From assembly GCA_029706075.1 (NCBI GenBank), contig JAINUG010000014.1, positions 6,039,838 to 6,103,837 of the forward strand: a stretch of DNA of 64,000 nucleotides. The letters run 5' to 3'. A program made the position numbers and the translations under genes. This DNA is from Aldrovandia affinis (taxonomy: Eukaryota > Chordata > Actinopteri > Notacanthiformes > Halosauridae). Positions within the stretch are counted from its first letter, which is position 1. Each line of letters starts with the position of its first letter. Below are positions 4,336 to 62,771 of the stretch, piece by piece. The notes under the pieces are model-generated. The model saw nothing but the letters and a program-made list of their open reading frames with translations, searched no databases and had not been told where the DNA came from.

Positions 4336-4710
4336 AAAAAAACAGGCATCATGGGGCGACCGTATTTTGTCTGGTCGGATATGGTGTGCACTGCCTGTCA
4401 GGGACAGGTTTCTACCAGACCGGCCCTGGTCGTCAGCCCTGATTGGGGGCGGCATTTGGCTGTCCCTGTCCGCCCCAGGGGGAGGGTGAGTCAGCTCGGG
4501 TCCGCCGTGAAGCACGTAAGGAGTCTCCAGAACGTGGGTGGGCGAGTTCACTGCCCTCTGAGAATTAGCTTGCCTCGTAGGGATGAACGGCAGACCCATG
4601 TGGGGAGGGTAAATTTGAATAAATAGAGGGTCTAATTGGCCACTAAATTGGGAGAAAAATGGGTAAAAATCTGAAATAAAGAAAAGAAAGGGAAAAAAAC
4701 AAGCATCATG
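4336..4710 (+). mobile_element. Main SINE family, 5'-truncated copy with target duplication
   Basis: This is a copy of the SINE family that dominates the window (call it SINE-A). The body includes the shared blocks GAATTAGCTTGCCTCGTAG (about 4561-4580) and TAATTGGCCACTAAATTGGG (about 4633-4652), and it ends in an A-rich tail. Its flanks are a direct repeat AAAAAAACARGCATCATG at 4336-4353 and 4693-4710 with one mismatch, read as the target-site duplication. The element itself is therefore about 4354-4692. The tRNA-like head is cut off before the A box, as expected for 5'-truncated, LINE-driven insertion. Confidence 0.85.
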
Positions 4711-4716
4711 TCCATG

Positions 4717-5250
4717 CATTAATTGTTTGTAGCCAAAGGCTAATTTCAAACACCTGTTCCCATTAAACTACAGAAAAAGAGAAGTATGTATCAAAAAAAT
4801 AAAAACAAATCAAAATACATGTACAAACACAAAAGTACAAATATCCAATAATACCTTTGAGCAGTAGAAGCACATGGAAACTCAAGCAGCGGACCAAGTG
4901 TCTGCCCTGTCAATACCACAGACCCTTAAGCCCAGCACCACTCGCTCTCTCGCTCTCTCTCTCTCATTAATTGCATTAATTGTTTGTAGCCAAAGGCTAA
5001 TTTCCAACACCTGTTCCCAATAAACTACAGAAAAAGAAAAGTATGTATCAAAAAAATCAAAATAAAAAAAAATACATGTACAAACACAAAATACATGTAC
5101 AAACACAAAAGTACAAATATCCAATAATACCTTTGAGCAGTAGAAGCACATGGAAACTCAAGCAGCAGACCAAGTGTCTGCCCTGTCAATACCACAGATC
5201 CTTAAGCCCAGCACCACTCTCTCTCTCGCTCTCTCTCTCTCACTCTCTGT
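4717..5250. repeat. Tandem pair of a ~257-bp repeat
   Basis: Two head-to-tail copies start at 4717 and 4974, both with CATTAATTGTTTGTAGCCAA. Each continues through an AAACTACAGAAAAAG block, an A-rich ATACATGTACAAACACAAA block and the block CTTTGAGCAGTAGAAGCACA, and ends in a CT-rich run. The second copy has an extra internal duplication of the ATACATGTACAAACACAAA block. A third copy lies at 20082-20375. I do not recognise the family. Confidence 0.85.
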
Positions 5251-5450
5251 GATCTCGCTCTTTCTCTCTCTTCCTCTGTGATATATTTCTCTCTCTCTCT
5301 TTGTTTCTGTTGGCTCATTCCCTCTCTCATACCCTGCACTCTTTCCACACAATGTTGTGTGTGTGTGTGCGTGTGTGTGGAGGGGTGGGTGGGGCAGTGA
5401 GTGAGTGTGTATGTGTCGGGGGGTGGGGGGGGGGGTAGTGTGTGAGTGTT
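5205..5450. repeat. CT-rich, GT-rich and G-rich low-complexity run
   Basis: A CT-rich segment (about 5205-5300) is followed by GT repeats and G-runs (about 5354-5450). The open frame translated across it on the minus strand is a low-complexity artefact. Confidence 0.8.
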
Positions 5451-7130: not shown

Positions 7131-8702
7131 TCTCAACGGTAGTGTGTAATACACACAATTTTTTAAATTCAGGTCATATTTTATGTTTTTCTTATAATTG
7201 TACATAAATAAACTTCAGATCTTAGCTTGTATGGAGCTTATATGGAAATGTTGTTATGTTGTGTTGTTGACCGGGTGCTTAGACAGGCTCTAATCTGAAC
7301 CTACTGGCATCATGGGAGAGATTGCTGCTCATTATGTTTCATGTTGTGTGCAGTGCGCAAGCGTGATGTGTCATACTCTTTGAGCACCCCCTAGTGACTG
7401 TCCTCACAAAGACGGCCTCTTAAGAAACCAATTGTGATGGAACAATTAGCCCAATCCATCCTTTATAATTCAATGGGGGAAAATCATAGACAGCTACAAG
7501 GGAGGGCAGGAGTGGAATTAACCTGTGCTGGGTAAATTGGATGGATTGACATCTCTAGGTTTAAATTCACTAGCTTCAAGATGAGCAGCCAAAACTTGAA
7601 CTTAAAATCGTTTTTTGTTGTAATAAAATTATTTATTTATTCTATATATCTATAAAATATGATTGGTTTCCCCCCTTTATTTCTCATTTTGTTTCTTTTG
7701 AGTTTTTTTCATTTTGTCCTCATCCAGAGCGCTCCTGCAGGCAGGGTTTCACAAGAAAAGATGTTCTGGAACACTCCAGAGAATCGGAAACCAGTCCGCC
7801 CCCTCAATCAGCCCTAATTACCTGGCTCGCCCCCCATTCACGGAACCCGGCTCCTTCAGCCTGTTCCCCATGAATGCCGAACGAGATGGGGCCCTACGTG
7901 CTGCCCTGTGAGACGGACCCGTCGGCCGGGACCAGCCAATCCAGAGAGAGGTAACTGATGTAATCCGGCCCGGGAATGTGGCCCCCTTTGTGTGAACTCT
8001 GGCGATGTGGGAAAGTACTGTAAAGCAGAGAGCTGTTGGGGTGGTGCAGGGGTAAAGAATTCTACCCCCCAAAAAAAAGGAAAAGGAAAAAAAGACTAAT
8101 GGTAACGTGAAGAGGTCTGGCTTTGTCTTTTTGTAAAAATACATAACTGCACTCCCTTTGTTTGGGTAGCCCTCGCGGTCCCGAAATCGTGCTCCAGTCC
8201 TCCGGGATAATTGGGCCAGGAGGAAATGTTTTGGACAGCACAAGTGGAAACAGAAAATAAGGCAGGGTGGGCGGTGGTGGTGGGGCAGGCGGTGTTCCGA
8301 AATGCTTTCCCAGTGAAGGAGGAATTGATTTTTTTGCAAGCGTGCGGTCATTCAGTTCCATCATCAAATTAAAATCATTTGTGCATGCGGCTCTTTAGAG
8401 TTCCGTGGGAGCGCCGGCTTGCAAGCAGCAATCGTTTCAATGTTTGGAAACGAATGCAAATGTGACACTTCTTAAATATTTGTTTTCGGAGAGAGCGAGC
8501 GACTGACTCAGAGGGTGGGGGGGAATAAAGTAGGGCGATGACACTTTTATTCATGGGCTTATAAAAATTATTAATGTGCAGCAACACAAATCAAATGCAT
8601 GTTTTTTTTGGGGTTTTGTTTTGTTTGTTGTTTTTTTAAAATCAATCCATGGAGATTGACAGGTATTCTCTAAATTGCACTCCTCATAAATGTGTGAGTT
8701 AT
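7131..8702. other. Non-coding stretch; moderately GC-rich block
   Basis: No gene recognised. The block at about 7720-7960 is more GC-rich than its surroundings and lacks repeat motifs seen elsewhere in the window. It contains CAGCCCTAATTACC and could be a conserved non-coding element, but sequence alone cannot show that. Open frames here have no recognisable domain. Confidence 0.45.
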
Positions 8703-8748
8703 TTCTTCTGCCTTTATATTTCGAAAGAGAAATATAAAGGCAGAAGAA
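8703..8748. other. Perfect 20-bp inverted repeat (hairpin)
   Basis: The arms at 8703-8722 and 8729-8748 are perfectly complementary (left arm core CTTCTGCCTTTATATTTC) around a 6-base loop, GAAAGA. The stem is AT-rich and could extrude as a cruciform or fold as RNA. The stem is short for a typical pre-miRNA, which usually pairs about 25-35 bp with mismatches. Confidence 0.9.
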
Positions 8749-9496
8749 TTGGCATCATGAATAATGGCCGATCAATCATTCGGTCATGTTTAATTTGCAG
8801 AGAGTGCATCCGTGGGCAATGACTGCATACTGACAACGGAATAAAATGTGAAAATGAAACAATGACTAGACCACATCAAGATTAAAACAGACTGAGTGGC
8901 TCAAAACAGAGCATTAGTATAACAATAACAAAATGTCACATCCAGTGGAAAGCTGGACCAATCTAGTTATTCTATACCCATGTTCTTTGCTCTTCAGAAA
9001 ATAATTCTACTGATAGTGTGAAAGATGGTACATGCTAGAAATATGAATATTGCGTCTTTGCTTAGGGAATAAAACTGGTTATGGCTGTAAATGAATATGG
9101 GATATTCCTTTGATTTATGGTAATTAAAATCTGATGGTCTATTGTCAAAGTTTAAATGAAGTTCTATTCTGTTTTAATTTACTTCTTTTTTTTGTTGACA
9201 TAGGTAAGTCAAAGATCCTCAAGGGATTCTGTGTGTACAGCAGCAATTCTGTGGAAATGGGGGAAAAAAACTCTTTATGATCTCGATGAATAATTCAGAA
9301 AATAAAAAGGGCATCACCTCGTAGACTCTCAAGACAAGCTCTCATATTAGGTGTAGTTTTAAAAAAACAACATATATATTTAGACAGTTTTTCCAGTGAA
9401 AGAATTTAAGCGTAGTCCAGAAGTCGTAGGTCAATCTACTCAAACACCACGCCAAAACAGCGGAAAACATCATCCATCCGGTTTAATATTATTTTA
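8749..9496. other. Non-coding stretch, nothing recognised
   Basis: AT-rich anonymous sequence with no repeat motif shared with other parts of the window and no coding signal. Confidence 0.5.
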
Positions 9497-14395: not shown

Positions 14396-16230
14396 TGTTT
14401 AATAATAACGCTGAGCTAAATAACCTCCGCCCGTCCCCTTGAAAACGGCCTGAGGTGTCCTTTAAGATAAATTTTGCTGAATGAACAAGGGTGGGCTGCG
14501 ATGTAATCATTTTGAGCAGCTTGGGCTTTTGCTTGTCATTTGAAAAATAGCCGTTCCTTTCATTTTCTGTTTCTCTCTTCTTCTTTTTTTTTTTATTGGT
14601 CACAGTGGCTGGATTTCGCTTATTTGCCAAACGGTCCCTGTAGAACAATGAGGGGACAAATCCCACATTAGAAAGGCTGGGACTCAAGGCGAAAGCGACA
14701 TAAAGTCATTAGACTTTTTATATATATTTCTTTAAAGGTCATTGCCTCTGCTACTAATATAGCCTGGATCTAAGAGCGTTCTACGAGACATGGCACAGAG
14801 GCACAGAGATATTTCACACACTCCTGCGTGTTTGCTGGTTTATTTACTTATCCACGTTTTTCATTATTGTGGTGATGAATTGGCTCAATGAGGGAAGCTG
14901 GGTCAAGCGGCAGTCAGTTTCATTGTCCTAATGCCATTTTAATGGCTCTGCTGTTTCTATAGGCAGGAAGACAGATTGTGTGTCACCTGCCACGTATGGA
15001 AAAAACAAAACAAAAAATAACATTCCCTAAATCATCAACAGGTCCCAGGGCCAGAAACTCACGCCCTCTGGAAGTGGGTCTCAGGGCACCGCAGACAAAA
15101 CGGCAGTGTGTGAACTTCACAAAATCTTTAGAGGGGGAAAAAAAAAAAAAAAAAAAAAAAAGGAAGAAAAAGAAATGGAAAGAAAATTGTTTCAGAAGCC
15201 GCGTTGTTTCTCTTCAAATAAGAAGGCATTGATTATTGAACAGTCGAGCGCACACAGTGCATATTGATCTGGTACCCCACTGGGAAGGTGGGGGGCTGGT
15301 GTGAGAAGCAGTAGATTGGATCACCCACTCGTTAAATCGCTGTGACCTACAGTAATGGTCAAAGAGAAAAAAAATATATAACTTCATTACCACGTTTGAG
15401 TCCAACCCCAAGATCGAAGCGTCAGGTCTGAACTCTGCTTTCTGGAGGAGGTGGGGGGGCGGGAGGGGACACGGTTGGGTTCTAAAATGTCTCCCTTCTG
15501 CTTTCGGGCCATTTTTGTTCCCGACAGACGTTTTGCGGTATGATTTAAAAATGAGGAAGACCCTTTTTAAAGTGCGCTGATTAACAGGCTTGTGTTGTGC
15601 GTTGGGGAGATTGCGTGGCTTAACCCCGTTTGAGCTGCCGCATCAGTCAGCAGTGTATTACGGGGTGTTATGTGGACCGTTTTATTTTTTCTCCTCCTCC
15701 CCCAAATGATGACAAAACAATCAAGGAAATCGATGAAAAGCACTTTACACATTAGAATGGCTCCACTGCGTGGCGCATCCATTCAAAACGACAGCCGCAG
15801 ATAGACCCACATTGTTTAATACAACAGGGGGTAAGGTTAAAAAGGCTCGTTTTTAGTCACGTTGATAGCTACATTAGGGTCGATTACTGGTCGCATCGCA
15901 TCCAGTCTACAGGAGTCATTCAGTCTAGCTGTGATGGAGCTTGTCTTTTGAGTGAAAAAAGACTAAGTATGACATGCATAGTGTTTTATAGTAATATACG
16001 AGAGCATTGGATGTATATCGAAGGATAATGTATTTTCTGAATCTGCTTTTAAATAAGGCCCAGGTGCACACAGGCACACTGACACTGTAGAGCTGAGCCC
16101 TTCTGTGTTATTTAGTCCTCACTCGTGCACAACCTTGAGACCAGGCCGTGTTTCCACAGACCCTCTGAAAGAGGAACTATTTCACTTCTGTTGTAAATAA
16201 GACCACTGTAAAAAAACGGGTAATGTTGCA

Positions 16231-16234
<4 letters not shown>
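14396..16234. other. Non-coding stretch with poly-A tract
   Basis: A run of 24 A at 15138-15161 in an A/G-rich setting. There is no recognisable retroposon body upstream, so I do not call it a retroposon tail. The rest is anonymous. Confidence 0.5.
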
Positions 16235-16264
<30 letters not shown>

Positions 16265-16288
16265 TAATGATGAGCACTGCATGCATGC

Positions 16289-16357
<69 letters not shown>

Positions 16358-16384
16358 AGAATGATGAGCACTGCATGCATGCAT

Positions 16385-16463
<79 letters not shown>

Positions 16464-16495
16464 ACTGTATGTGAGTGTGTGTGAGTATGTGTGTG
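16235..16495. repeat. GT compound array with internal duplicated spacer
   Basis: Three GT blocks are separated by two copies of a spacer containing ATGATGAGCACTGCATGCAT (about 16266-16290 and 16361-16385). The repeat unit is thus a GT block plus spacer, duplicated once. Minus-strand frames across it translate to Thr-His repeats and are artefacts. Confidence 0.95.
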
Positions 16496-17344
16496 TATGA
16501 CAGACTGCTGGCCTGCTATCTCATTATGAGGATGGGACTGCACTGCTGCAGTGTAGGTGAAGTAGCCCCGCCTTGAGGAACAGCACAAACCTGCCTGCCC
16601 CACCTGGGGAAATCAAACAGCCCACATCCTCGCTCAGCCAGCGATAAATTAGCGACTGGAACCGCTCATCTCAGTAATAAAACTAAAACAAAGACTGCAC
16701 AGAACGCTTGCAGCAAATCCACGTCTCTCTGTGGGCTGCTTTTTGTTTCCACTATTTACTTATTTTTCGTGGGGGGAAGGGGGGCCGCAACTCTCGGCTG
16801 ATGCACGGCTGAACGGCAGGTTTGGAGAGGCAGACGCGCCGAGCCAGGTGCCCGTTCCTTCTCCAGACGTCGGGGGGAGAACATTTTGCGGGCATAGCGT
16901 GTTTGTGGTTATGTAAGGTTCTGTTGACTGGATCTGGTGAGGCGAGCCGGCAGGGAGGGGGAGTTTAGGGGGCTCCGCGTCTGTAATCAACAGATGCCAC
17001 TGCCCAGATTGAACAACACACCTGTCCCCCTCCCCCGCAACACCCCCGGTTTCTTCAGAAGGAGGCAGTGGCCGCTGGCCATTCAGCCTGTCTCAGAGTG
17101 CTCTAGTATTGTCTGCCTTCTGTTTGATGTTTGTTTTTGCTCGCCCCGAATCTTCAGTCTGTTCTTTTTACTCTTTTCAAAACATGTTGTGTTTTTTTTT
17201 TAGCCCCTCTTCTCTTTTGTCATCCCTTTTTCTTAGCTTTTTCTTTTGTGCTCCCTTTGCCGAGCAATGACGGTAGTCTTATTCCTTATTTTTGTGTCTG
17301 AACAGCACTTTATCGATTTCTATTGATTCAGTTTATTTTTATAT
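16496..17344. other. Non-coding stretch, moderately GC-rich
   Basis: No gene recognised. The block at 16750-17100 is GC-rich and not shared with other parts of the window. It holds short open frames with no domain. Possible but unproven conserved non-coding sequence. Confidence 0.45.
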
Positions 17345-18540: not shown

Positions 18541-19751
18541 AAATGATAATTTTTTTCGCTTTCTCACTCTCACTTTCAATATGCTTTCTCTCTCTCTCTC
18601 TTTTTTGTTGATGTGTTTAATTACCAGTTTAATTGCTGCTTTATATGTGAGTGCTCCCTACGCACCTGGCTATAGAGTTATACCAGTCCGTTTCCATGGT
18701 GTCGATATAAATAATTGATATTTATACACACTATATTATTTATACATCATGAAAACTCCTGTTTTAGAAATATATTAACCAGGTTTTCGTGGAAACTAAT
18801 ACACTTGTGGTTCAAGAAAGTGTTTCAACCGATTGCACCTCACTCCTCCTTCCCCCGACCCCCAAAACTCATAGGCACATCCATGCACATTAAACTGCTA
18901 TATAACACAGTTGATTACTGTCATGATGGCTCTCCAGAAATGGATTTCACACTGATTGATGGTATAATCTCCAATGTGGAATTAGACTGTCAGAAAATGT
19001 GCGTTACCCGAGGCTGTGCAAATGCACAGCGCACCCCCCTCCTCCCCCCTGATTAATTTCAGCGGGGTTGTGAATTTGCATGAATGAATGTCAAATTACC
19101 TCTCGCGAAAAGAGCCTCCTGTCTATTTTCCGAGACACTCCATTCAGCCCTTGTTGACATTTATTAGGAATAATAACTAAATATTTTCAATACAATGCGC
19201 AGTACCAGCTAGCGGGCCGTGACCCGCAGCTGCTGGAAAGGTGAATGCCGGTCATGATGGCGGGAAAAAAAGAAAAAAAACTGTGCCTGATAAACTCCCG
19301 GGGGGGTTGGGGGAGGGCTGGAAAAATTGAGGATGAGATCAGAAAAGTTCTTCCATCATTATTCATCCCACTTACAGAAAAATAATCATAAAAAAGCAAG
19401 AAATCACACAAACAGGCCTATTTTTTTGGTTGCTGCTGTTGTTGTTGCTGTTGCTTGTATATTTCCCCCAAAAAACATTAAAGAAATACCCTTCATCAGA
19501 GACACTCAAACCCAAAATCCCCAATTACAGTATCGCCGTAACCAAGGCAACGTCAGGGGCGGACAGATTGTTCGTTAGCTGAGGAAATCCCCCCGGTGTT
19601 GGTAGGGGGGCATGCTATTAGCGGGGTAAGGGCTGTGTTTGCAGCGGCAGATTAATTCGCAGACTGAGTGCGAACGCAGCTGAGCTTGTAGACCATTGGT
19701 CAGAGAGCCCACGGCACATACTGGGCCGACCCTCTTAAAAAGAGACTTTTC
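18541..19751. other. Non-coding stretch, AT-rich in part
   Basis: No gene recognised. The segment at about 19050-19210 has a homeodomain-site-like GATTAATTTC and is not shared with other parts of the window, so it is a weak candidate for conserved non-coding DNA. G-runs occur near 19300. Confidence 0.45.
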
Positions 19752-20040
19752 TAAACCTGTCTCTGCCAGACCTGCCCTGGCCGTCAGCCCCGATTGGGGG
19801 CGACATTCAGCTGTCCACCCCAGGGGGAGTGGGGAGGGTTGTTGGCACGAGTTCGCTGTGAAGCCCGTAAGGGAGTCTCCAGAACGTGGGTGGGCGAATC
19901 CCGTCTCGAAGGGAGCGGTGTACGCTGACCTCTGAGAATTAGCTTGCCTCATAGAGATGAGCGGCGGACCCCTGTGGGGAGGGCAAATTGAAATAAACAG
20001 AGGGTATAATTGGCTACTAAATTGGGAGGGAAAAAATTAT
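19752..20040 (+). mobile_element. SINE-A copy, head missing
   Basis: Body and 3' part are present: GTCAGCCCCGATTGGGGGCG, GAATTAGCTTGCCTCATAGA and the tail block GCTACTAAATTGGGAGGG. The sequence upstream of about 19752 no longer matches the tRNA-like head. It is followed within 45 bp by the repeat at 20082. Confidence 0.85.
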
Positions 20041-20081
20041 AATATATATTTTTTTAAAGCATCAGGTTGTTTAAGCCTTTG

Positions 20082-20375
20082 TAGCCAAAGGCTAATTTCC
20101 AACACCTGTTCCCAATAAACTACAGAAAAAGAAAAGTATGTATCAAAAAAATAAAAACAAACAAATCAAAATAAATGACAAACACAGAAGTACAAAGTCA
20201 CTCGATACAAACAAATATCCAATAATACCTTTGAGCAATAGAAGCACATGGAAACTCAAACAGCAGACCAAGTGTCTGCCCTGTCAATACCACAGACCCT
20301 TAAGCCCAGCACCACTCGCTCTCTCGCTCTCGCTCTCTTGCTCTCTCTCACTCTCTCTCTCTCACTCTTTCCCTT
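20082..20375. repeat. Third copy of the 4.7-kb repeat
   Basis: Matches 4974-5250 block by block (GCCAAAGGCTAATTTCCAAC, then the A-rich section, CTTTGAGCAATAGAAGCACA, and the final CT-rich run). As at 4.7 kb, it lies immediately 3' of a SINE-A copy. Confidence 0.85.
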
Positions 20376-23352: not shown

Positions 23353-23736
23353 CCCTACACCAGCTATGTTTAACATAATATTACCTCTATTGCACCAAGA
23401 AGCTAAGCTTAAAAAACTCCTGATAGAGGAAATGATGGCTGTATCTAAATTTGTGTTGCACGCATGACACTGGCAATCAATCAGTCGTCCAGGGCATCAT
23501 AGTTGTTTATTTGCTCTGTTGAAGGGGCATAAAATGAAATAACAGTGAGTTGCGTGATTCACCTCAGCTGACAGTCGCTGCAAGCTTTTGAATACCATTC
23601 TATAAATATAAGTTTATAGTATCGCACAAAACTTATTCATTCACAGCATAGCATAAAACCACACTAGAAAGTTAGTCTAAAGTTTGCCAAATAACATCAC
23701 ACAATATTTATATAACAATAACAATACATGTATATA
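23353..23736. other. Non-coding stretch, nothing recognised
   Basis: AT-rich anonymous sequence immediately upstream of the Tc1-like element. Confidence 0.5.
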
Positions 23737-24456
23737 CACTCAGTGGCCACTTTATTAGGTACACCTGTATGCAATTATCTAATCAGCCAATCATGTGGCA
23801 GCAACTCAATGCATAAAATGCAGATATGGTCAAGAGGTTCAGTTGTTGTTCAGACCAAAAATCTGAATGGGGAAGAAATGTGATCTAAGTGACTTTGACC
23901 GTGGAATGATTGTTGGTGCCAGATGGGGTGGTGTGAGTATCTCAGAAACTGCTGATCTCGTGGGATTTTACGCACAACAGTCGCTAGAGTTTACAGAGAA
24001 TGGTGCGAAAAACAAAAAACATCCAGTGAGTGGCAGTTCTGTGGGCGAAAACACCTTGTTAGGTCAGAGAATGGCCAGACTGGTTCAAGCTGACAGGAAG
24101 GTGACAGTAACTCAAACAACCACGTGTTACAACAGTGGTATGCAGAACAGCATCTCTGAACGCACAACACATCGAACCTTGAAGTGGATGGGCTACAGCA
24201 GCAGAAGACCACGCTGGGTTCCACTCCTGTTAGCTAAGAACAGGAAAGTGAGAGCTACAGTGGGCACAGGCTCACCAAAACTGGACAGTTGAAGATTGGA
24301 AAAACGTCGCCTGGTCTGACGAATCTTGATTTCTGCTGCGACATGCAGATGGTAGGGTCAGAATTTGTTGCATCCCTTTATGGCCACCGTCTACCCATCT
24401 TCTAATGGCTACTTCCAGCAGGATAAGGCGCTGTGATGCCAAATCACGTCCATCCG

Positions 24457-24653
24457 GCCAAAATGTGTCCACGGTGATGTAATCGGAATTTTTATGATGT
24501 AATCGGAATTTTGGACTGCAGTTTCTATGCCAACATGACGTGCTCGCATTCCCGAGTGAGAAAATGGCGTCCACTGCCAAAATGTGTCCACATGGTGATG
24601 TAATCGGAATGTTGGACTGTGTGATGACCAAAATGGGTCCAGGGTGATGTAAT
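24457..24653. repeat. Three subterminal motif copies in the foldback arm
   Basis: The word CCAAAATGTGTCCAC-(AT)-GGTGATGTAAT occurs at 24457-24489, 24576-24610 and, slightly altered (AATGGGTCCAGG), at 24627-24653. An extra GATGTAATCGGAATTTTGG lies at about 24496-24514. All four recur in mirror image at 26127-26325. Such clustered subterminal repeats are often transposase-binding sites in DNA transposons; that role is inferred here. Confidence 0.8.
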
Positions 24654-24673
24654 TTAGCTACGAATAAGATGTA

Positions 24674-24914
24674 CAGCTAAGTTAGCTGCCTTGCTACGAA
24701 CATAATATATGAAATATAATATATAATTATATTATAATTATATAGCCAGCTAGCTACGGACATAACAATATGCATTGTCTGTTCAGCTGCACAGTTAAGT
24801 TAGCTGCCTTGCTACGAACATAATATATGAATTATAATATAGAATTATAGGCTATTATAATTATATAGGCAGCTAGCTACGGACATAATAGTATCCTTTG
24901 TCTGTTCAGCTGCA
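24674..24914. repeat. Two AT-rich ~120-bp units (left arm)
   Basis: Unit 1 (24674-24791, 118 bp) and unit 2 (24792-24914, 123 bp), both opening CAG(C/T)TAAGTTAGCTGCCTTG and containing GCTAGCTACGGACATAA. A partial third unit starts at 24915 and leads into the inner arm. Confidence 0.88.
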
Positions 24915-25127
24915 CAGTTAAGTTCGCTGCCTTGCTACGAACATAATATATGGATCGCCTGCTTAGATGGCTAGTGAAATACTTGCTAGTAAAATAAAAA
25001 TCGTGATAACAGATAACCTTTATCATTTCCTTTTTGTATAGGAGTGTATAATATAGCCATGGATGGATTTAAATCCCAGCAACAGTATTCTGAATTACTG
25101 AGTTATGTTACACCACCTCATACAATT

Positions 25128-25260
25128 GTGGGATGGACTAGCTTGCTATGTATACAACGAATAACACTGCAAGGTTTAAAATGATGGTGTGTGTGTGAAA
25201 GAAATAGTCTTGTCTTGTGGGTACTACAGTAAGTTAATATAGCAAACTAGTCCATCCCAC
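25128..25260. repeat. Inner inverted repeat in the foldback spacer
   Basis: Arms of 22 bp at 25128-25149 and 25239-25260 (core GGGATGGACTAG) with one mismatch, separated by 89 bp. This sits within the single-copy spacer between the large arms. Confidence 0.85.
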
Positions 25261-25618
25261 GTTATGGCCTGTTATCTGTGAAATGAACTCTTGTAACGTT
25301 ACCCACATGAGTTGAGCATAAACACTGTCGGTGACGTTAGCTAGCATTTACATCCATTAAACGCGAAGGCTACTCAAGGAATGTCAGGATATATGATATA
25401 TCTATTATTATTATGTTTGAAACAGAACGTTCCCCCTCCACTAGCATCACTAACACAATGTAAAATCTAAAACAATTAACAATATAAGCACAGCTCCTAT
25501 ACAAAAAGGAAATGATAATGGTGTTATCACGATTTTTATTTTACTAGCAGATATTTCACTAGCCATCTAAGCAGGCGATCCATATATTATGTTCGTAGCA
25601 AGGCAGCGAACTTAACTG

Positions 25619-26106
25619 TGCAGCTGAACAGACAAAGGATACTATTATGTCCGTAGCTAGCTGCCTATATAATTATAATAGCCTATAATTCTATATTATA
25701 ATTCATATATTATGTTAAGTAGCAAGGCAGCTAACTTAACTGTGCAGCTGAACAGACAAAGGATACTATTATGTCCGTAGCTAGCTGCCTATATAATTAT
25801 AATAGCCTATAATTCTATATTATAATTCATATATTATGTTCGTAGCAAGGCAGCTAACTTAACTGTGCAGCTGAACAGACAAATGATACTATTATGTCCG
25901 TAGCTAGCTGCCTATATAATTATAATAGCCTATAATTCTATATTATAATTCATATATTATGTTCGTAGCAAGGCAGCTAACTTAACTGTGCAGCTGAACA
26001 GACAATGCATATTGTTATGTCCGTAGCTAGCTGGCTATATAATTATAATATAATTATATATTATATTTCATATATTATGTTCGTAGCAAGGCAGCTAACT
26101 TAGCTG
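25619..26106. repeat. Four AT-rich ~120-bp units (right arm)
   Basis: Units at 25619-25742 (124 bp), 25743-25865 (123), 25866-25988 (123) and 25989-26106 (118), in inverse orientation to the left-arm units. The outermost matches left unit 1; the other three match left unit 2. The two extra units account for the whole length difference between the arms. Confidence 0.88.
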
Positions 26107-26595
26107 TACATCTTATTCGTAGCTAAATTACATCACCCTGGACCCATTTTGGTCATCACACAGTCCAACATTCCGATTACATCACCATGTGGACACATTT
26201 TGGCAGTGGACGCCATTTTCTCACTCGGGAATGCGAGCACGTCATGTTGGCATAGCAACTGCAGTCCAAAATTCCGATTACATCATAAAAATTCCGATTA
26301 CATCACCGTGGACACATTTTGGCCGGATGGACGTGATTTGGCATCACAGCGCCATGTCACAAAGCACACGTCATCTCAAGCTGGTTCCACGAACATAACA
26401 ATGAGTTCAGTGTACTCCAATGGCCTCCACAGTCACCAGATCTCAGTCCAATAGAGCACCTTTGGGATGTGGTGGAACGGGAGATTCGCAACATGAATGT
26501 GCAGCCGACAAATCTGCAGCAACTGCGTGATGCTATCATGTCAGCATGGACCAGAATCTCTGAGGAAGGTGTTCAGCACCTTGCTGAATCCATGC

Positions 26596-26660
26596 TTTGT
26601 TGTACGTCGCTCTGGATAAGAGCGTCTGCCAAATCCCTGTAATGTAATGTAATGTAATGC
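26596..26660 (+). mobile_element. 5'-truncated LINE/SINE tail insertion
   Basis: Contains GTCGCTCTGGATAAGAGCG and GTCTGCCAAAT, the tail common to fish L2-type LINEs and their SINEs, and ends in TGTAA units, the usual 3' repeat of such elements. It interrupts the Tc1 3' region. ATGC at 26592-26595 and 26657-26660 may be a short target duplication. Confidence 0.8.
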
Positions 26661-26744
26661 CACGAAGAATTCAGGCTGTTCTGGGGGCAAAGGGGGTCCT
26701 ACCCAGTACTAGAAAGGTGTACCTAATAAAGTGGTCACTGAGTG

Positions 26745-27771
26745 TATATAACAATAGCCCTATCAATTGCTGAGTTTAATACGCAATACTAATATACCTA
26801 AAGTACCTTTTGGATATGGTAATATTATATAACGAGGTACAATATATAACACAATATTAGTTAACTTCAATAATATTAATTATCTCCAACAGTCATCAAC
26901 AGAACCACTCCATTTCAGTTCAATAGTTTATTGGACTACTTGTTCTCCTGACAGAAGTCAGCTTGAACATTAAAGAGCTTTGTCGACCATCTACTGCATC
27001 TGTAGATGACAGCAGAATAAGCATAACCATATGCCCCCTGCCACACAGCATCACTGATAGATGAAAGAGCCTGACCTGGATGACCCTCCACCATGTTTCT
27101 CAAAGGGGGGGGCCGGGGGCAGCGGGGGGGTTCTTCGTCCAATCCCGGCACCCGGAGGTCCGGTGTCGCATCCCGCAGTGGAACGCAATCTCCGCCGGCG
27201 ATGGCCGTTCTCACCGCTCAATCGCATCCGAGGAGAACACGGGACAGGAGCAGACATTTCCCCCCCTCCAGTCTGCCTGCGTTTCCCCCCTATACTTTCA
27301 TTAAACTGTCATTCTGGAACAAACAAAGAATAAATAAGAAGAAGAAAAACACTCCCACACTCCCACACTCCTGTGTGCCTGGTACTGGGCTGTTAGTGCT
27401 TAATATCGTTTCATTTTATTATCTTTTTTTTACATTTTTATCCAGAAGGTGGAATGTTTTATTTTGACCATTAATCTCCCGTTGTGCTGTTCGACAGAAG
27501 ATCAGCGTGTGTTTTTCTCCTCCCCCACCCCCCCTCTCTCTCTCTCTCCGTTTGTTTATTCGGTGTTTGGCCTTTAGTGCAACATGCATTATAGATGTCG
27601 GCCTTCCTTCCTCCTTCCTTCCTCCTCAGTACTTCCATGCTTAATGAGCTTGTCATTTAAAACATTTACCCATGATTCTGTGGGTCACTGGTTAGAATTT
27701 TAAGTGGGAGAATGCCCTTTGTACCCCTCAGAAAGGTACTGCACCCCAAATCACTGAAGATACCAACCCAT
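26745..27771. other. Non-coding stretch, partly GC-rich
   Basis: AT-rich after the Tc1 end, then a G/C-rich block (27100-27280) with overlapping open frames in several registers and no recognisable domain. A CT run lies at about 27531-27549. No exon called. Confidence 0.45.
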
Positions 27772-28179
27772 TGGGGCAGCGGATAGCGTAGTGGTCTAAC
27801 GCACCTGTATCTTGGCTGGTCTGATATGATGTGCGCTGCTTATCAGGGACGTGGTTCGAAACCCGTCTGCTAGACTGGCCCTGGCCGTTAGCCCCATTCG
27901 GGGATGGCATTTGGCTATACGCCCCAAGGGAAGGCAGGGTGGTGAGCCGGCTCGAGTTTGCCGTGAAGCACATAAAGGAGTCTCCAGAATGTGGGTGGGC
28001 GAATTCCGTCTGGAAGGAAGTTCGCTGCCCTTGTAGAATTAGCTTGCCTCGTAGAGACGAGCGGCAGACTTGTGTGGGAAGGGCAAATAGAAACAAATAG
28101 AGGGTATAATTGACCACTAAATTGGGAGAAAAACGGGAAAAAATCTTAAACTAATTATTATTATTTTTAAATGTCAAAA
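27772..28179 (+). mobile_element. Full-length SINE-A copy with 15-bp target duplication
   Basis: The best-defined copy of the family. The direct repeat AAGATACCAACCCAT at 27757-27771 and 28180-28194 is a perfect target duplication. The head has an A-box-like TAGCGTAGTGGTCTAACGC (about 27784-27802) and a B-box-like GGTTCGAAACCC (about 27852-27863), resembling a class II (Leu/Ser-type) tRNA. The body follows, then GAATTAGCTTGCCTCGTAGA, GACCACTAAATTGGGAGAAA and an A/T-rich tail. It encodes no protein. The A and B boxes should direct RNA polymerase III transcription; mobilisation by a LINE reverse transcriptase is family knowledge. Confidence 0.93.
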
Positions 28180-40241: not shown

Positions 40242-41406
40242 TAGGGCTGTCAAGTGATTAAAATATGTAGTCGTGATTAATCGCACGATTATCCATAGTT
40301 AATCGCGATTAATCACACTTTTTTTTAAATGTTCAAAATGTACCTTAAATGGATATTTTTCAAGTGTTTAATACTCTTATCAACATGGGAGGGGACAAAT
40401 GTGCTTGCTTTATGCAAATTATGTTTATTGGAAATCAATGAACAACCCAAAACAATTACAAATATTGTCCAGAAACCCTCAAAGGTACTGCATTTAGCAT
40501 AAAAAAATATGCTCAAATCATAACATGGCAAGCTCAAGCCCAACAGGCAATAACAATTGGGCATATTGACCTGCTAAATTTAATTTAACATTCCTTAGTA
40601 ATATGAGTACTCACACAATGTAGTGTGTCCAACTTTGCGCTTATAAAGGTTCACTAAAACATCCTGTTTTTTTAGGCATTAACACAAAACAATGGGCCTC
40701 AATGCATCGCAACAACAGACACATTGTACAACAGGTACATTGGTCAGTTAAATTTTCCATTACTCAAAGATCATTCCCTGGATCCCTCGCACTTCTAAAG
40801 CAAATCAAATAGTCTCCGGTGAGCGCAACCGTCGTAGTCTGTCCCAACTCCTCCGCTACTTTTGCTTTCTGGTCCTCATACAAGTTGTGTATCTTCGATA
40901 CAGTGGTGGCTCTCGAAGGCAATTCATAAGTGCAGTCGTTGGATGCGATCTGAATTATTTCACGCAGACCCTCATCCTCCACAATGTTAATTGGCCTGCA
41001 AGCTGTAGCCACCCATTTAGCTATTGCTGTTGACAGCTTGCTGCTTGTAGAGTTGTTCAGGGGTTTCCCTCGCACACTATCAAGTCTGGTCTGCCGCAAG
41101 CGAGATGTTTCAGGGCTAACGGGGCTGTCTGCATTAACTGTGTGCTTGGCTAGCAAATGGTATTTGAGACTAGATGTACTCCAGTGGTAAGTCAATTCAC
41201 ATCGACAGTAACTGCAAATAACTTTGGTCTTGTCGACAGGCCCATCTGGCAGGGCTTTGTAGTTGAACTTGCCATTCAAAATGCCTTTTTCTTTATCCAT
41301 TGCTGCTTGCTATCGCCATCCGACTTAACGTTAATGCTAGCTGATTCGTAAACTACTAACTAAACTATGAATTTGCATTAACGGGTTATTCACTTTGACA
41401 GCCCTA
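40242..41406 (-). mobile_element. hAT-type element, internally deleted, with 8-bp TSD
   Basis: Ends TAGGGCTGTCAA-GTGA at 40242 and its complement TCACTTTGACAGCCCTA ending at 41406 form roughly 17-bp inverted repeats. Both sides carry ATATATAT (40234-40241 and 41407-41414), an 8-bp target duplication as expected for hAT elements. The low-complexity target means this could partly be coincidence. A subterminal region near 40270-40315 is rich in GATTAATCGC and its complement. At 1165 bp it is far shorter than an autonomous hAT and retains only an N-terminal ORF. Confidence 0.88.
40764..41300 (-). CDS. BED zinc-finger N-terminal fragment of hAT transposase
   Basis: An intact 178-codon ORF starts at a true ATG (MDKEKGILNGKF). 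It contains a BED-type zinc finger with C29-x2-C32 (ICSYC) and H48-x4-H53 (YHLLAKH). In hAT transposases and domesticated ZBED proteins this finger binds DNA. A linker rich in Ser/Thr follows, then a helical region (LREIIQIASNDCTYELPSRA) and VALTGDY near residue 160. In full transposases VALTGD-like sequence leads into the RNase-H-fold catalytic domain. Here the frame instead runs into 15 unrelated residues and stops, so the catalytic and dimerisation (hATC) parts are missing. The product, if made, could bind DNA but not cut it. Expression is unknown. It most likely represents a deletion derivative rather than a host gene. Confidence 0.8.
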   Translation of the reverse strand: MDKEKGILNGKFNYKALPDGPVDKTKVICSYCRCELTYHWSTSSLKYHLLAKHTVNADSPVSPETSRLRQTRLDSVRGKPLNNSTSSKLSTAIAKWVATACRPINIVEDEGLREIIQIASNDCTYELPSRATTVSKIHNLYEDQKAKVAEELGQTTTVALTGDYLICFRSARDPGNDL

Positions 41407-43592: not shown

Positions 43593-43965
43593 AGGCCTTG
43601 GATAGCATAGCGGTCTAACACACCCGTATTGGCTGGTCCTTTACGAGTGTGAGCTGCCTATCATGGTCGCGGTTTGAAACCCGACTGTACCAGACCGGCC
43701 CTGGTGGGGAGTCCCGATCGGGGGCAGCATTTGTCTGTCCGCCCCAGGGGGAAGGGGGAGGGTGAGCCTGCATGAACTCACTGAGCGCGTAAGGGTGTCT
43801 CCAGAACATCGGTGGGAGAATTCCTTCTCAAAGGAAGCGGAGTTCGCTGCCCTCAGAGAATTAGCTTGCCTCATAGAGACGGGTGGTGAGTTTGTGTGGG
43901 GAGGGCAAATCGAAATAGAGGGTATGATTGGCCACTAAATTGGGCGAAAAACTGGAAAAAAATCT
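43593..43965 (+). mobile_element. Full-length SINE-A copy
   Basis: Head TAGCATAGCGGTCTAACAC and B-box GGTTTGAAACCC (about 43669-43680), body CCCGATCGGGGGCAGCATTT, then GAATTAGCTTGCCTCATAGA and GGCCACTAAATTGGGCGAAA, then the A-rich tail. Complete from head to tail. No clear target duplication. Confidence 0.92.
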
Positions 43966-44304
43966 AAAAATTTGAAAGAAAGAAATACTGGTGTATGAGG
44001 TCAGCACACACTACTTCCCTCAAAGCTGACAAAATGCATGAGCATGTGTTTCATTTTTTTTGTTCTTGTCTCGATGCTCTTACAGACAATGGCCTGGTGG
44101 TGGTGTGTTACTGATGCCAAAAATCCTCCTTCACCCCCACCCCCCCTCCTGACTGACAGCCTCAGCTGAGTGTCTGAGTCCACGCTGTGGAATGAGTTTA
44201 CCTCACCCTAATGCTCAGTCACATGATCAGACCTCCACCGGGAGATCTAATACAGTATGAATATGGAATGTGTATCGAGGAGCTCGATGATTAAAATGGG
44301 TGTG
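43966..44304. other. Non-coding stretch, nothing recognised
   Basis: Anonymous. Confidence 0.5.
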
Positions 44305-44392: not shown

Positions 44393-44459
44393 TGGGTCTC
44401 CCCATGGTCAATTTGACTCAGTGCTGACCTTCAGAAACCACTGCAACCTTTAGGTTGAA

Positions 44460-44541
<82 letters not shown>

Positions 44542-44562
44542 CGTGTGTACATATGTGTGTTC

Positions 44563-44608
<46 letters not shown>

Positions 44609-44614
44609 GTGTTC

Positions 44615-44657
<43 letters not shown>

Positions 44658-45060
44658 CGTTTGTGTGTGTGTGTATATCTGCGTGTGTGTGTGTGTGTGT
44701 GTTTGTGTGTTTGTGTGTATGTGTGTATATCTGCGTGTGTATGTGTGTGTTTGTGTGTTTGTGTGTATGTATATTTGTGTGGATGTGTATGTTTGTGTGT
44801 GTGTGCACGTATGTTTGTGTGTTTGTGTGTGTCTGAATATGTGTGTGCGTTTGTGTATGTGTGCGTGCATGCGTGTTTGTGTGGTTGCATGTGTACATTT
44901 GTGCATGTGCGTGCTTGTTTGTGTGTGTGTGTGTGTGTGTGTGCGCGCGAACACGCACGTATGCATATGCATGCTTGTGCTTGTGCTTGTGTGTGTGTGT
45001 GTGCGCATATGTGCATATGTGTGTTTGTGTGCGTGCCTGCGTGCGTGCGTGTGTGTGCAC
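44460..45060. repeat. 600-bp GT compound array
   Basis: Long pure GT blocks at the left (about 44463-44535) grade into GT with GTAT, GCGT and TTGTG interruptions at the right. Translations in both directions (Cys-Val or His-Thr repeats) are artefacts. Such alternating purine-pyrimidine tracts can adopt Z-DNA. Confidence 0.95.
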
Positions 45061-45460
45061 TCCAAAGCTGTCCCAGGTCAGGGCTCACAGCTGCCCTGTG
45101 TGCAGACAGTAAGACAGCAGCTGTGAGCTGCAGCAGGGGAACGCTCCGCTCCTCGTGAACCGCACACTGGATAATCGCACACTCCACTTTATTACACAGC
45201 TGTTCCCTGTTTGACGGCACTGAATGCTCCTGTTATGTGCATACTCCGGTTACTGTCAGTGAGGAATGCACCGCGGTCCTGAGCATGTGCGGTCATCAGG
45301 ACTGGGAGGTCTGGACGTTCAAACGGTCAGGGTCGTGAGACGACTGGTAGCATGGGAGAACCGAGTGCCCGGGGTCCAATCACGGCTCGGCCCAGTGGAC
45401 GCTCTAGCGGACGCGGAGATGAGTGACCAATCTACAGTGACCAGCCCTGCGATGTCCCGC
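45061..45460. other. Non-coding stretch, nothing recognised
   Basis: Moderately GC-rich anonymous sequence. A weak A/B-box-like pattern (AGACGACTGGTAGCATGG and GGGGTCCAATC) near 45340-45385 is too degenerate to call. Confidence 0.45.
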
Positions 45461-45814
45461 ACAGATGTGCCTTTTTTTTTCTTCTTTTGTTTCCGATTTT
45501 TCCAATTTTTTGCCGTTTTCCCATTGACCAATTATACCCTACATTTATTTTGATTTGCCCTCCCCACACAAAGCCAAGCTAATTCTCAGAGGGCAGCGAA
45601 CTCCACTTCCTTCAAGACAGAATTCGCCCACCCACGTTCTGGAGACACCCTTACGCGCTTCTCAGCGAGATTCTTGCCGGCTCACCCTTCCCCCTCCCCC
45701 TGGGGTGGACAGCCAAATGCCGGCCCCAATCAGGACTCCCCACCAGGGCCGGTCTGGTACAGTCAGGTTTTGAACCGTGACCGTGATAGGCAGCTCACAA
45801 CAGATGTGCCTTTT
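45461..45814 (-). mobile_element. SINE-A copy with 15-bp target duplication
   Basis: The direct repeat ACAGATGTGCCTTTT at 45461-45475 and 45800-45814 flanks the element (45476-45799). Read on the minus strand it begins inside the tRNA-like head (A box lost) and includes B-box GGTTCAAAACC, the body and the 3' block GAATTAGCTTGGC, ending in a TTTTCC-type tail complement. 5' truncated, like the 4.35-kb copy. Confidence 0.93.
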
Positions 45815-47315: not shown

Positions 47316-48774
47316 TGTATCACACTTTGTATTATTATTCTACATCATTGCATCACTGTATCATCATGAACTGGATCAATAAATCACTGGATCGCTGAAT
47401 TACTGAATCTGTACCATTAGATCATTATGCGGTAGTGTCTCTTCCTCACTGTACGAGGGCATGAATGTACTGTGTGATCTCATCACTTGCTCATGTGCAT
47501 GTTGCTGGCCTCACCAGTCTGTGCTCCCTGCAGCAGGGCTGGTCATCTCTAAAACCTGTTCATCTGTACAGACAGTGCTGTTCATCTCTGAAACCCTGTG
47601 TATCTGTACACACCAGCTTGCCTCTGAGTTGCATCAGTGAGTTGCATCCTATTGCAGTGATTAAATACATATTTCTTCCTGAAAGAACCTGCCACTTTAA
47701 TAAGCATTCTACATGTGCATTATCCAGCCCAGTTAATCAGCATGAAAATGTAAGGTATTATAAGTGACATAACGCAGTGTAAATAATGAAGACAGAATGC
47801 AGCGAGTGTCTGATTGCTGTTCTGCGATAACAGAAGCAGCTCGGTTCTGGGTCCAGCTCTGATCGCTTCTGGCTCCACTTGGTTCTGGTCCCACTCTCAG
47901 TTCTGGGTCTGGCCCAGCTTGGTTCTTGCCCTGCTTGGTTCTGGTTCTGGCTCAGCTTGGTTCTGGGTCTGGTCCCGCTTGATTCTGGCCCCGCTCTGTC
48001 CATTTACCCGCAGTCCCAGGAAACATTAGGAGCCACAAACTGAGCTCAGTGCTTTCTGACAGTGATCAATCATCTCTTTCTCTCCTCCTTTTAGTCCGAA
48101 GGTCTAATACACTCCCCCTCTCTCTCTCTCTCCACCACATTGGGAAAAAGAAATGAAGGCAGTGGCCATCCAGATCAAAGTCTGAGTTTATTGGGTTGTT
48201 TTTGTACCGGAAAGCGGGTGGGTGGGGGTGGGTGGCGGGGGGCTGTTGTTTTCATGCCTGGTTCCTCTGTACAAGAAATGGGTCGCCAGCTGTGTTGTCA
48301 CCACTGCTTGTGCTGCAGTGAGTTTTCACGTTTCTCCTCAATTGCTCCCTACCCCTTTATATTTTCGGAATGTTCAATGCTTCTTCTTTGTTACGATTGT
48401 TTAACTGTTATGATTGAATCATTAAAATCAGAGCCACCATGATCTAAAGAGAACCTGGGGAGGGTGTTTGGTCGGCCGTGCCAAGAACATACAGTACTGA
48501 GGAGGTGGTTCTGTCGAGACTGGCACGTAAGGGATTTTACACTTTTTTAATCACAAATCTGCCCCATGTGCCCTGCTGGTGCTAACACTGAGGTGCTTGT
48601 GATAATTAAGCGATATGTTTGATACTCGTCATCCCACAACGCGCTGTTTGCTTTTCTCCCGTCCAGGTGAAAATCTGGGCCTAGCCTCCAAAGGGTCGCG
48701 GACAAACATCACAGACACCCCTCAGCACGTCTCACTTGAGCGTGAATCGGGAGACGAGCAAAAACTCCCCCCCC
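47316..48774. other. Non-coding stretch with CTGGTTC-rich repeat
   Basis: At about 47840-48000 the words TTGGTTCTGG, GGTCTGGCCC and GCTCAGCTTGG recur irregularly, forming a degenerate minisatellite. A CT run lies at about 48117-48132. The rest is anonymous. Confidence 0.6.
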
Positions 48775-48792
48775 AAACACACACTCACACAC

Positions 48793-48829
<37 letters not shown>

Positions 48830-49095
48830 TGCACACACGCGCACGCACACACGCACACACAGGCACACACAGACACACACACGGACACACACACACACGC
48901 ACACACACACACACACAGACACACATGCACGCACACATGCGCACACACACACACAGACACACACGCACGCACACATACATGCACACACCCACACACGGAC
49001 ATGCACACAGACACGGACACACACACACACACAGACAGACACACACGGATGCACACACACACACACACAGACACACACACGGACACACACACACA

Positions 49096-49130
<35 letters not shown>

Positions 49131-49240
49131 GCACACATGCACACACACACACACACGGACATGCACACAGACACACACACACATGGACACGCACGCACGC
49201 ACGCACGCACGCACACACATGCATGCACACACGCACACTC
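48775..49240. repeat. 466-bp CA compound array
   Basis: CA repeats broken by GCAC, GGAC, ACAG and GCACGCAC words, with some larger repeated blocks (CACGGACATGCACACAGACA twice, about 48993 and 49155). Translations are artefacts. Confidence 0.95.
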
Positions 49241-50014
49241 ACCACGTTCTCCTCGCAATGTAAAGAGCAGCGCATTGAGCAATTGTTGTCTCGATTGTAA
49301 AGTAACGCTCCTCTGAGGCAAAAAAACTGGACTCGGCTCAAATATGTCATTTTTGGGGGGGGGGCTTTGACTGTGAAATTCACGTCGCCCAGCCCAGAGC
49401 ACGGCTTACAGTCATAAAAATACGACACACAAAAAATAATCTGAAGCAAAGATGAATGGCTAGAGAGAAAGCCTTACACGTGGAGCCCTGAGGCTTGCAC
49501 CCCCCCTCCCCTCCCTCAGTGCGGGTGTGTGGTGACCCCTCTGACCCCGGGAGGGCAGGGTCAGGCCAGGCTAACGACCTCAGCGCGTGTTGGATATGTA
49601 CAGTGCAGCTGCAGAGACAACCTCTTTCCCTGGAGACGGAGCGGGCTGCATTTACAGTCACCCCCCCACCCTGTTTCACACCCCCCCTGAGACCAGTGAG
49701 TCACAGTGGGAGTGTGGAGGGCTGCAGACAGCAGGGTCATTAAAAGCCCGCTGTAGGAGTGTCTGTGGTTGCCATCTGTCCCCCCTGACTGTACTGAATG
49801 TTTGCTCTCGGGAAGGGCCTGGCTAACGAACCCAGAGAACCAGGCGGTGGGGTCCTCCCCCAGAGCTGAAGGTTTTCACTGTTCTTTGGCCTTACCTGCA
49901 TCTGTAACATGCTTCTCTCTCTCCCCCTCTCTCTCTCTCTCTCCCTATCTTTATTCAATTAAGCATGCTTCATTGGCATAAAATACTGCCGAAGCATATA
50001 TGTCTCTCTCTTTG

Positions 50015-54104: not shown

Positions 54105-54455
54105 TTTATTTCTTTTTTTTTCTCCCAATTTGGTTGCCAATTATACCCTCTATTTATCTCAATTCCCCTCCCCCACGAGTCCACCGCCCGTCCTCCGGGT
54201 CGAGACACTCTTTCCGGGCCGATTGATCCACCTCTCCTCAGAATTCTACCACAGACGCCTTTACCTGCTCCTCGACGGACTCGGGCCGGCTCACTCTCCC
54301 CCCTCCCCCAGGGCGGACAGCCAAATGCCGCCTTCGATCGGGGCTGACGAGCAGGTAGAGACGCGGGTTTCGAACCGCGTCCCTGACAGGCAGCGCACAC
54401 CACACCGGACCAGCCAATGTGTGGTGCGTTAGACCACTACGCCACCGCCACCCCT
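54105..54455 (-). mobile_element. Full-length SINE-A copy
   Basis: On the minus strand: head GTGGCGTAGTGGTCTAACGC, B-box GGTTCGAAACCC (complement at about 54368-54379), body with CCCGATCGAAGGCGGCATTT, and tail block with the complement of TCTCCCAATTTGGTTGCCAA (54121-54140). The GAATTAGCTT block is replaced by diverged sequence. It lies tail-to-tail with the fragment at 53990-54090. Confidence 0.9.
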
Positions 54456-62200: not shown

Positions 62201-62379
62201 TTCTTCTTTTTTTACATTCCAGGAGCTCAGATCTGATACAGAGTAAGTCTGCCCACGAGAACAATCTGGCAAAAAATAAATAAATGGAGATGAAGTTGAA
62301 GTAAAAATGAGGGCATTAAAAGGTTCTCAGTGCAGGTGGAGAGAGTTTCTGCTCCCAGGTTTCTTTGAAGTGAGCAACA
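59205..62379. other. Non-coding stretch with small microsatellites
   Basis: CA repeat at about 59630-59650, CA-rich stretches at 60058-60150, GT-rich at 60590-60665, GA at 61298-61320. Otherwise anonymous; open frames up to 146 codons have no domain. No gene recognised. Confidence 0.5.
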
Positions 62380-62600
62380 AGGACACACACACATACACAC
62401 ACATGCACACATGCATACATACACACACTCACACACACACACACTTCCACACATGCACCCAGACACACTCACACATACTCACACACACACACACACACAG
62501 AGCACAGCACCCAGACACACACACAGCACAGTGCAGAACCCAGACACACACACACACACTTACACACACCACACACACACACACTCACACACAGTGTCCA
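62380..62600. repeat. CA compound array
   Basis: CA repeats with ACATGCAC, CACTCACA and the larger word CAGAGCACAGCACCCAGACA. Frames over it are artefacts. Confidence 0.9.
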
Positions 62601-62771
62601 GACACACTTGTCTTTTGCTCCACAGAGAGAGTGGTAGAGAGTGGGCCTGTGCTGCTCTCACTGATGAAGGAGCAGAAGAGCTCAAGAAATGACAGGTTCA
62701 GTGCAGAGCACAAGGACATGGCCACAGGGCTCAGAAACTCACTGCCTCACGGGATACCCTCTGCAGATGGA

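Follow-up and report, generated by a model that had tools for sequence, protein, structure and literature searches.

A foldback element in Aldrovandia affinis is very probably a deletion derivative of a Ginger-type DNA transposon

Results

The foldback element and its interrupted host

The window analysed here, 64,000 nucleotides of the halosaurid fish Aldrovandia affinis (assembly GCA_029706075.1, contig JAINUG010000014.1, positions 6,039,838 to 6,103,837 of the forward strand), carries a foldback element of 1,917 bp at 24432..26348, with ends TGTGATGCC...GGCATCACA, inserted in a Tc1-like transposon. Two inverted arms, of 613 bp on the left (24432..25044, plus strand) and 855 bp on the right (25494..26348, minus strand), surround a spacer of 449 bp (25045..25493), and GCGC stands on each side (24428..24431 and 26349..26352). 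The original prediction had described these arms, spacer and flanks together with the near-identity of the outer 242 bp, and all were confirmed. Each arm is made of an outer domain (24432..24673, plus strand; 26107..26348, minus strand) and an inner domain of ~123-bp tandem units (24667..24955, plus strand; 25578..26113, minus strand). The outer domains differ from each other at a single base, as do the outer 385 bp of the arms, and the right arm is longer than the left because it contains two additional ~123-bp units. A subterminal motif, CCAAAATG(T/G)GTCCA...GGTGATGTAAT, occurs in three copies per arm when shorter or gapped matches are counted, and in one copy per arm in an ungapped search. 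Very long and internally repetitive inverted arms thus make up most of the element, which places it in the foldback structural class. A Pfam search with three spacer peptides, a subset of the six frames, gave no match at E 1, which supports the non-coding state predicted along with the foldback architecture.

There is no second copy of the element within the window. The outer-arm pattern, searched in collections of virus and prokaryote contigs, and the left arm, compared by BLAST with plasmids and phages, gave 0 matches, as expected because these collections are prokaryotic or viral. Folded as RNA by itself, the left arm beat 20 of 20 shuffles (z = -1.99), a result that is uninformative on a hairpin formed by both arms.

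The interrupted host, which the original prediction had not noticed, lies on the plus strand at 23731..26750 and ends in 36-bp terminal inverted repeats (TIRs; 23731-23766 and 26715-26750). A DDE_3 match (1.1e-09) lies in its right flank, and reading its transposase across the join gives a match to the Sleeping Beauty transposase (2.1e-14); when the two flanks are joined with a single GCGC they give the open reading NGYFQQDKAPCHKAHVISS. We searched the species' own genome (a 1.22-Gb assembly of 2,576 contigs) for the uninterrupted 24-bp site and found it at 1,380 places (673 + 707) with at most 1 mismatch, exact among the matches listed, and 0 times with the reversed control. Therefore, the GCGC that the original prediction had read in the flanks is a real 4-bp target site duplication (TSD). 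Downstream of the foldback element, a short insert at ~26598-26660 with repeated AATG at its end breaks the Tc1 coding region; we take it to resemble the tail of a long or short interspersed nuclear element of fish.

A multicopy family with a GC-rich palindromic target

The copy count that the original prediction had called for shows a family of many members. The 269-bp arm query gave at least 57 matches in the genome (40 of 903 candidates scored), and the 26-bp end, at up to 2 mismatches, was found at 61 places, against 0 for the reversed control pattern. Counted from the list, these ends form 25 inverted pairs and 11 single ends, and 23 of the 25 pairs span less than 4.3 kb by coordinates. 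Chance cannot have produced the arms, because those of the window element match in inverted orientation over 534 nt at 99% complementarity and the genome holds 25 inverted pairs where the reversed control has none. Of the 25 pairs, 21 have the same 4 bp on both flanks, and none has a 5-bp match. The 21 identical TSDs read GCGC (4), GCAC (3), GCGG (3) and CCGC (2), with nine singles; across the 42 strands of these sites, the TSD is preceded by G in 38, and its two central positions hold C and G, respectively, in 31 each. The preferred target is a palindrome close to tGSCGSCa. This tally leaves out the loci L023-L026, which do not have both intact ends in the retrieved stretch, and the 11 single ends; the element of contig C1822, cut in L026, is included.

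Near-perfect palindromes are prone to assembly error, and the element could have been such an artefact, as the original prediction had itself cautioned, or a single local inverted duplication. The 25 inverted pairs have differing flanks, 21 of them with matching duplications, and the empty site is present 1,380 times, so that the probability of this explanation is next to negligible; at the level of the family, the 25 inverted pairs led us to reject it.

The size of the tandem arrays varies widely, from 0 to 9 units per side by core count. In L023 (contig C857), ~8 and 9 units by the same count lie in two orientations and the end region is doubled, i.e., the array has grown.

A long relative encodes a Gypsy-type integrase

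One inverted pair, on contig C2378, delimits an element of 7,868 bp (L009:1001-8868) with the same ends as the window element. Its outer 222 bp match the window left arm at 99% or more, and its arms, of 1,205 and 1,084 bp, contain 122-bp tandem units. The subterminal motif is present in four copies per arm when shorter or gapped matches are counted, and in three in the ungapped search. On the plus strand, an integrase zinc finger (H2C2) was matched at 7.1e-08 without splicing, along with weaker matches to the integrase core, Ulp1 and PHD. After joining the pieces by eye, the matches improved to 1.5e-18 for H2C2 and 1.6e-12 for rve, and the best relatives of solved structure were Ty3 Gag-Pol (6.1e-18) and then the PFV integrase (2.1e-17). 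The catalytic pattern, read by eye across a presumed intron, is GVDLIGPF / ILTDQGREF / HPQTNGLDER, the second D and the E being separated by 35 residues. An open stretch of 273 residues matches C48 (Ulp1) at 5.6e-4 (20.2 bits, for a Pfam cut-off of 20.7) and PHD at 2.7e-3 (18.1 bits, for a cut-off of 24), and the C48 pattern NHW / D / Q / DCG can be read in it by eye. Ginger1 transposons have a GPY/F motif and, upstream of the zinc finger, a YPYY motif (Bao, Kapitonov and Jurka 2010, PMC2836005). In L009, the GPY/F position reads WPTQYR, also judged by eye; YPYY has no strict match in the three forward frames of L009:2200-3300 and L025:3700-4900, where the upstream exons are not established. 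At E 0.1, the six frames of L009:1300-8600 gave no match to reverse transcriptase, nor to MULE or any other transposase model, and the minus strand of L009 gave no domain match.

Other coding copies exist. Among the best 150 of 3,354 candidates for a 61-residue integrase exon, 30 are 77-100% identical; the other 120, at 51% or less, are probably Gypsy retrotransposons. Nine coding loci were retrieved besides that of L009, seven of them 96.7-99.5% identical to it across 2.1-3.2 kb and the remaining two more divergent. The end regions of three of these nine loci were read. In C1101 (L062), both arms are present and inverted, at 99.3% over 547 bp. C691 (L058) has arm repeats at the 3' end, its 5' end lying beyond the stretch read. 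C2244 (L059, L060) has arm repeats on both sides in the same direction rather than inverted; its 5'-side repeats are not oriented as a single simple element requires and must therefore belong to another element or to a rearrangement. Since arms are found in L009 and in C1101, long repetitive arms are a feature of coding copies and not only of the short derivatives. C691 and one end of C1101 have another type of outermost end, TGTGATGGCAAT..., followed by the same inner arm repeats as in the family, and the other end of C1101 is without the first bases of TGTGATGGCAAT; a swap of the terminal domain is possible.

The association between arms and integrase could be read in another way, with the integrase as a passenger, the foldbacks being moved by another transposase and the long integrase-bearing copies being their cargo-carrying relatives. 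The short span of nearly all end pairs (23 of 25) would suit this idea, as would the fact that the link between integrase and ends rests on sequence and that L009 is not fully open. Against it, coding copies bear the repetitive arms, the six frames searched in L009 contain no other transposase match, and the combination of a TGTNR end, a 4-bp GC-rich TSD and an integrase with Ulp1/PHD is the one of Ginger1 (PMC2836005). We regard the passenger explanation as quite improbable, and favour the integrase as the enzyme of the family.

The short form probably derives from the long one by an internal deletion

The window element corresponds to L009 up to ~1828 joined to L009 from ~7707, with a 2-bp AG overlap at 25043-25044 (junction at 25031..25062, plus strand) and a loss of ~5.9 kb. 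The left arm stops at 25044 because the deletion point is there. The spacer matches the right half of L009 from ~7707 inward, and its counterpart in L009 is mostly still arm sequence (the right arm spans 7785-8868); on this comparison, the right half of the long element survived the deletion and its inner part forms the spacer. Of 19 elements compared (L025 and L026 were left out), 13 have the junction with no more than 1 mismatch. Among the other six, BLAST recovers the same join with local changes in L022, 10 mismatches were counted at the site in L014, and L009, L023, L024 and L027 are built differently. Most simply, a single founding deletion would have been followed by the spread of the short form.

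Recent spread probably explains most of the arm identity

The near-identity of the arms had been predicted to result from recent activity or from ongoing gene conversion. When the outer 222 bp are compared, the median number of differences is 1 between the two arms of the same element (mean 5.2, 18 elements) and 2 between arms taken from different elements (mean 5.7, 613 pairs, of which 137 are identical). This comparison leaves out L023, L025 and L026; one of the 613 comparisons is between the two arms of the window element itself (1 difference), which affects neither the median nor the count of 137, and both means are inflated by L027, whose left arm was mostly replaced. Differences between elements are hardly above those between the arms of one, so that most of the likeness of the arms can be put down to a recent burst. 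Among the coding and short copies, many are ~97-100% alike, which suggests activity recent enough to test. The outer arms have observed/expected CpG ratios of 0.95 and 0.94, compared with 0.43 and 0.45 for the Tc1 flanks, and this high value fits a young insertion.

If, instead, the insertion were old, its arms would have been kept alike chiefly by conversion from one to the other, and a number of elements carry traces of exchange. The same private base is found in both arms of L021 (alignment column 186) and of L019 (column 122), and a variant at column 70 is in both arms of L022 and L028 and in only one arm of L016. Furthermore, in L022 and L028 the match to the window arm ends at 222 bp on the left side, a limit shared with the coding copy, and reaches 269 bp on the right, the limit seen in the window copy; the outer 222 bp of their two arms nevertheless differ at only 0 and 2 positions. 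The private bases point to some arm-to-arm exchange, and the mixed arm limits suggest recombination between subfamilies. However, different insertions are almost as alike as the arms of one, the only arm difference of the window element has remained unconverted, and its CpG content is high. An old insertion with arms maintained mainly by conversion is thus unlikely. In short, there are signs of the recent activity that had been predicted, and conversion appears to be secondary, with traces of it in some elements.

Other features of the window

An open frame of ~180 amino acids at 40764-41309, on the minus strand, has a BED zinc finger (Pfam zf-BED, 2.2e-07) and is probably the front of what we take to be a hAT-type transposase. 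Self-comparison of the window revealed a family of diverged interspersed repeats, ~69-90% alike, with at least 6 copies in both orientations (4362-5272, 19749-20369, 27773-28150, 43594-43969, 45472-45805 and 54114-54454). Long open frames at 16112-16612, 44418-45232, 48606-49473 and 62280-63199 are mostly translated CA/TG dinucleotide repeats, and ARAGORN found no tRNA genes in the window.

Discussion

Our analysis indicates that the window copy is very probably non-autonomous and derived by deletion from a Ginger-type DNA transposon whose ends are foldback-like. The family, which the original prediction had not recognised and had thought possibly undescribed, can thus be assigned to a known class, that of Ginger, its longer relative having a Gypsy-type integrase with Ulp1/PHD matches. 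A number of observations support this assignment. First, L009 has a DDE transposase resembling Gypsy integrases and TIRs, with no match to reverse transcriptase, as in the Ginger superfamily. Second, all 61 ends are of the TGTNR type, with TGTGA in 56 and TGTCA in 5. Third, the 4-bp TSD of Ginger1 is found in 21 of the 25 pairs. Fourth, the C-terminal protease and PHD of Ginger1 can be counted as present, on C48 and PHD matches below the Pfam cut-offs.

The published Ginger1 elements have TIRs of 40-270 bp, TSDs of CCGG or CCGT/ACGG, lengths of ~2.6-7 kb, and a C-terminal Ulp1 or OTU protease sometimes accompanied by PHD (PMC2836005). The family described here resembles them in its Gypsy-type integrase with an H2C2 finger and a DDE core, its apparent introns and the same order of the protein, as well as in its TGTNR ends, its 4-bp GC-rich TSD and the lack of a detected reverse transcriptase; Ginger1-9_HM also has a C-terminal Ulp1 plus PHD (PMC2836005). 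It differs from them in having arms of a kilobase or more (1,205 and 1,084 bp in L009) with ~122-bp tandem units, in a length of 7.87 kb for L009, and in TSDs such as GCGC, GCAC and GCGG, none of the 21 identical ones being CCGG, CCGT or ACGG (PMC2836005). A Ginger1 identity in the strict published sense was thus rejected on TSD sequence and TIR length, and since these two traits are not shared we regard the family as a variant within the Ginger superfamily that stands nearest to Ginger1 without being a member of it. Ginger2/Tdd are also integrase-type DNA transposons with TGTNR ends and, in their metazoan members, a 4-bp TSD, but they have an AT-rich RTATAY target and are without GPY/F and YPYY, whereas here the targets are GC-rich palindromes and there are Ulp1/PHD matches (PMC2836005). 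The vertebrate genes GIN1 and GIN2 are of the same integrase lineage, a likeness drawn from their description alone (PMC3424704, PMC2836005); they are domesticated host genes without TIRs, and the family here is mobile and multicopy.

Foldback elements have mostly been assigned to Mutator, with exceptions that include the P-type Galileo (PMC4079207, PMC3573991). A foldback of the Mutator/MULE kind, unrelated to the integrase element, would therefore be the commonest expectation, and Ulp1 domains are also known in Mutator transposases (PMC2836005). Yet 21 of the 25 pairs have a TSD of 4 bp and none has one of 5, whereas Tetris was assigned to Mutator by its TSDs of 8-10 bp (PMC4079207), and we rejected a Mutator/MULE identity on this length; moreover, the same ends flank a Gypsy-type integrase gene in an element that matches no MULE model in the frames searched. 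We hold a Mutator origin to be very improbable, and keep the assignment to Ginger. Tetris, from Drosophila virilis, is non-autonomous like the window copy, and was assigned to Mutator by its authors, with no coding partner found (PMC4079207). A close parallel in organisation is Galileo of Drosophila, which has foldback-like long TIRs with internal tandem repeats of varying number (PMC3573991) and copies consisting only of TIRs and spacer that were later tied to a transposase-coding element (PMC3573991, PMC3688188). Galileo is of the P type, unlike the family here, which has an integrase. Ginger elements were reported in repeat surveys of teleosts (PMC4746887, PMC7915175), and therefore the presence of Ginger in a fish is not new. 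A foldback Ginger, or this target preference, was not found in searches of open-access papers, most of them covering the first results, and the accessible part of PMC6431247 describes no foldback Ginger.

The process we propose would involve 1) binding of the family's Ginger-type integrase, acting in trans, to the repeated subterminal motifs of the arms, the CCAAAATG...GGTGATGTAAT motifs being, we infer, candidate transposase-binding sites; 2) excision of the short element by this integrase and its insertion at palindromes of the type tG[SCGS]Ca, the cuts being staggered by 4 bp; 3) a single origin of the internal deletion through faulty end-joining; 4) a recent spread of the short form; and 5) expansion and contraction of the ~122-bp units, with a partial homogenisation of the arms by recombination. 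The tandem repeats of Galileo hold extra transposase-binding sites, and on this model longer tandem arrays may give stronger binding of the integrase (PMC3688188).

Several points weigh against this interpretation. No transposition was observed. The C48 and PHD scores of L009 both lie under the Pfam cut-offs, and a single-sequence AlphaFold prediction of the Ulp1/PHD stretch gave no usable model (mean predicted local distance difference test score, pLDDT, 33.6). The reading frame of L009 shifts inside the zinc-finger exon, so that L009 may not be autonomous and we therefore call it coding rather than autonomous; a complete open gene was established in no copy. Both inverted arms of one element were seen in only one (C1101) of the three further coding loci read. 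The deletion junction is not within 1 mismatch in 6 of the 19 elements, and CpG is as high as in the arms in 8% of 501 ordinary 242-bp stretches of the window. Finally, an exact 4-bp duplication is missing in four of the 25 pairs (L017, L020, L021 and C2238), which are candidates for recombination between copies at different sites, and of these C2238 is a long coding pair, there being only two such pairs whose ends match.

In a broader perspective, we lean slightly towards seeing in this family a distinct and recently active lineage of Ginger-like elements in vertebrates, in which foldback ends evolved independently of the Mutator and P lineages, the target shifted from CCGG to a GC-rich palindrome like tGSCGSCa, and the arms serve both as arrays of binding sites and as raw material for short derivatives that spread fast. 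If true, this would tie a foldback element to a coding partner in a vertebrate, within the integrase-type transposons, and would add a further independent origin of the foldback plan to those of Mutator and P. It would also make it possible to test whether the binding of the transposase is increased by long repetitive ends. Integrase-type transposons bear, in turn, on where the GIN genes of vertebrates came from and on the way in which an integrase can excise DNA as well as insert it.
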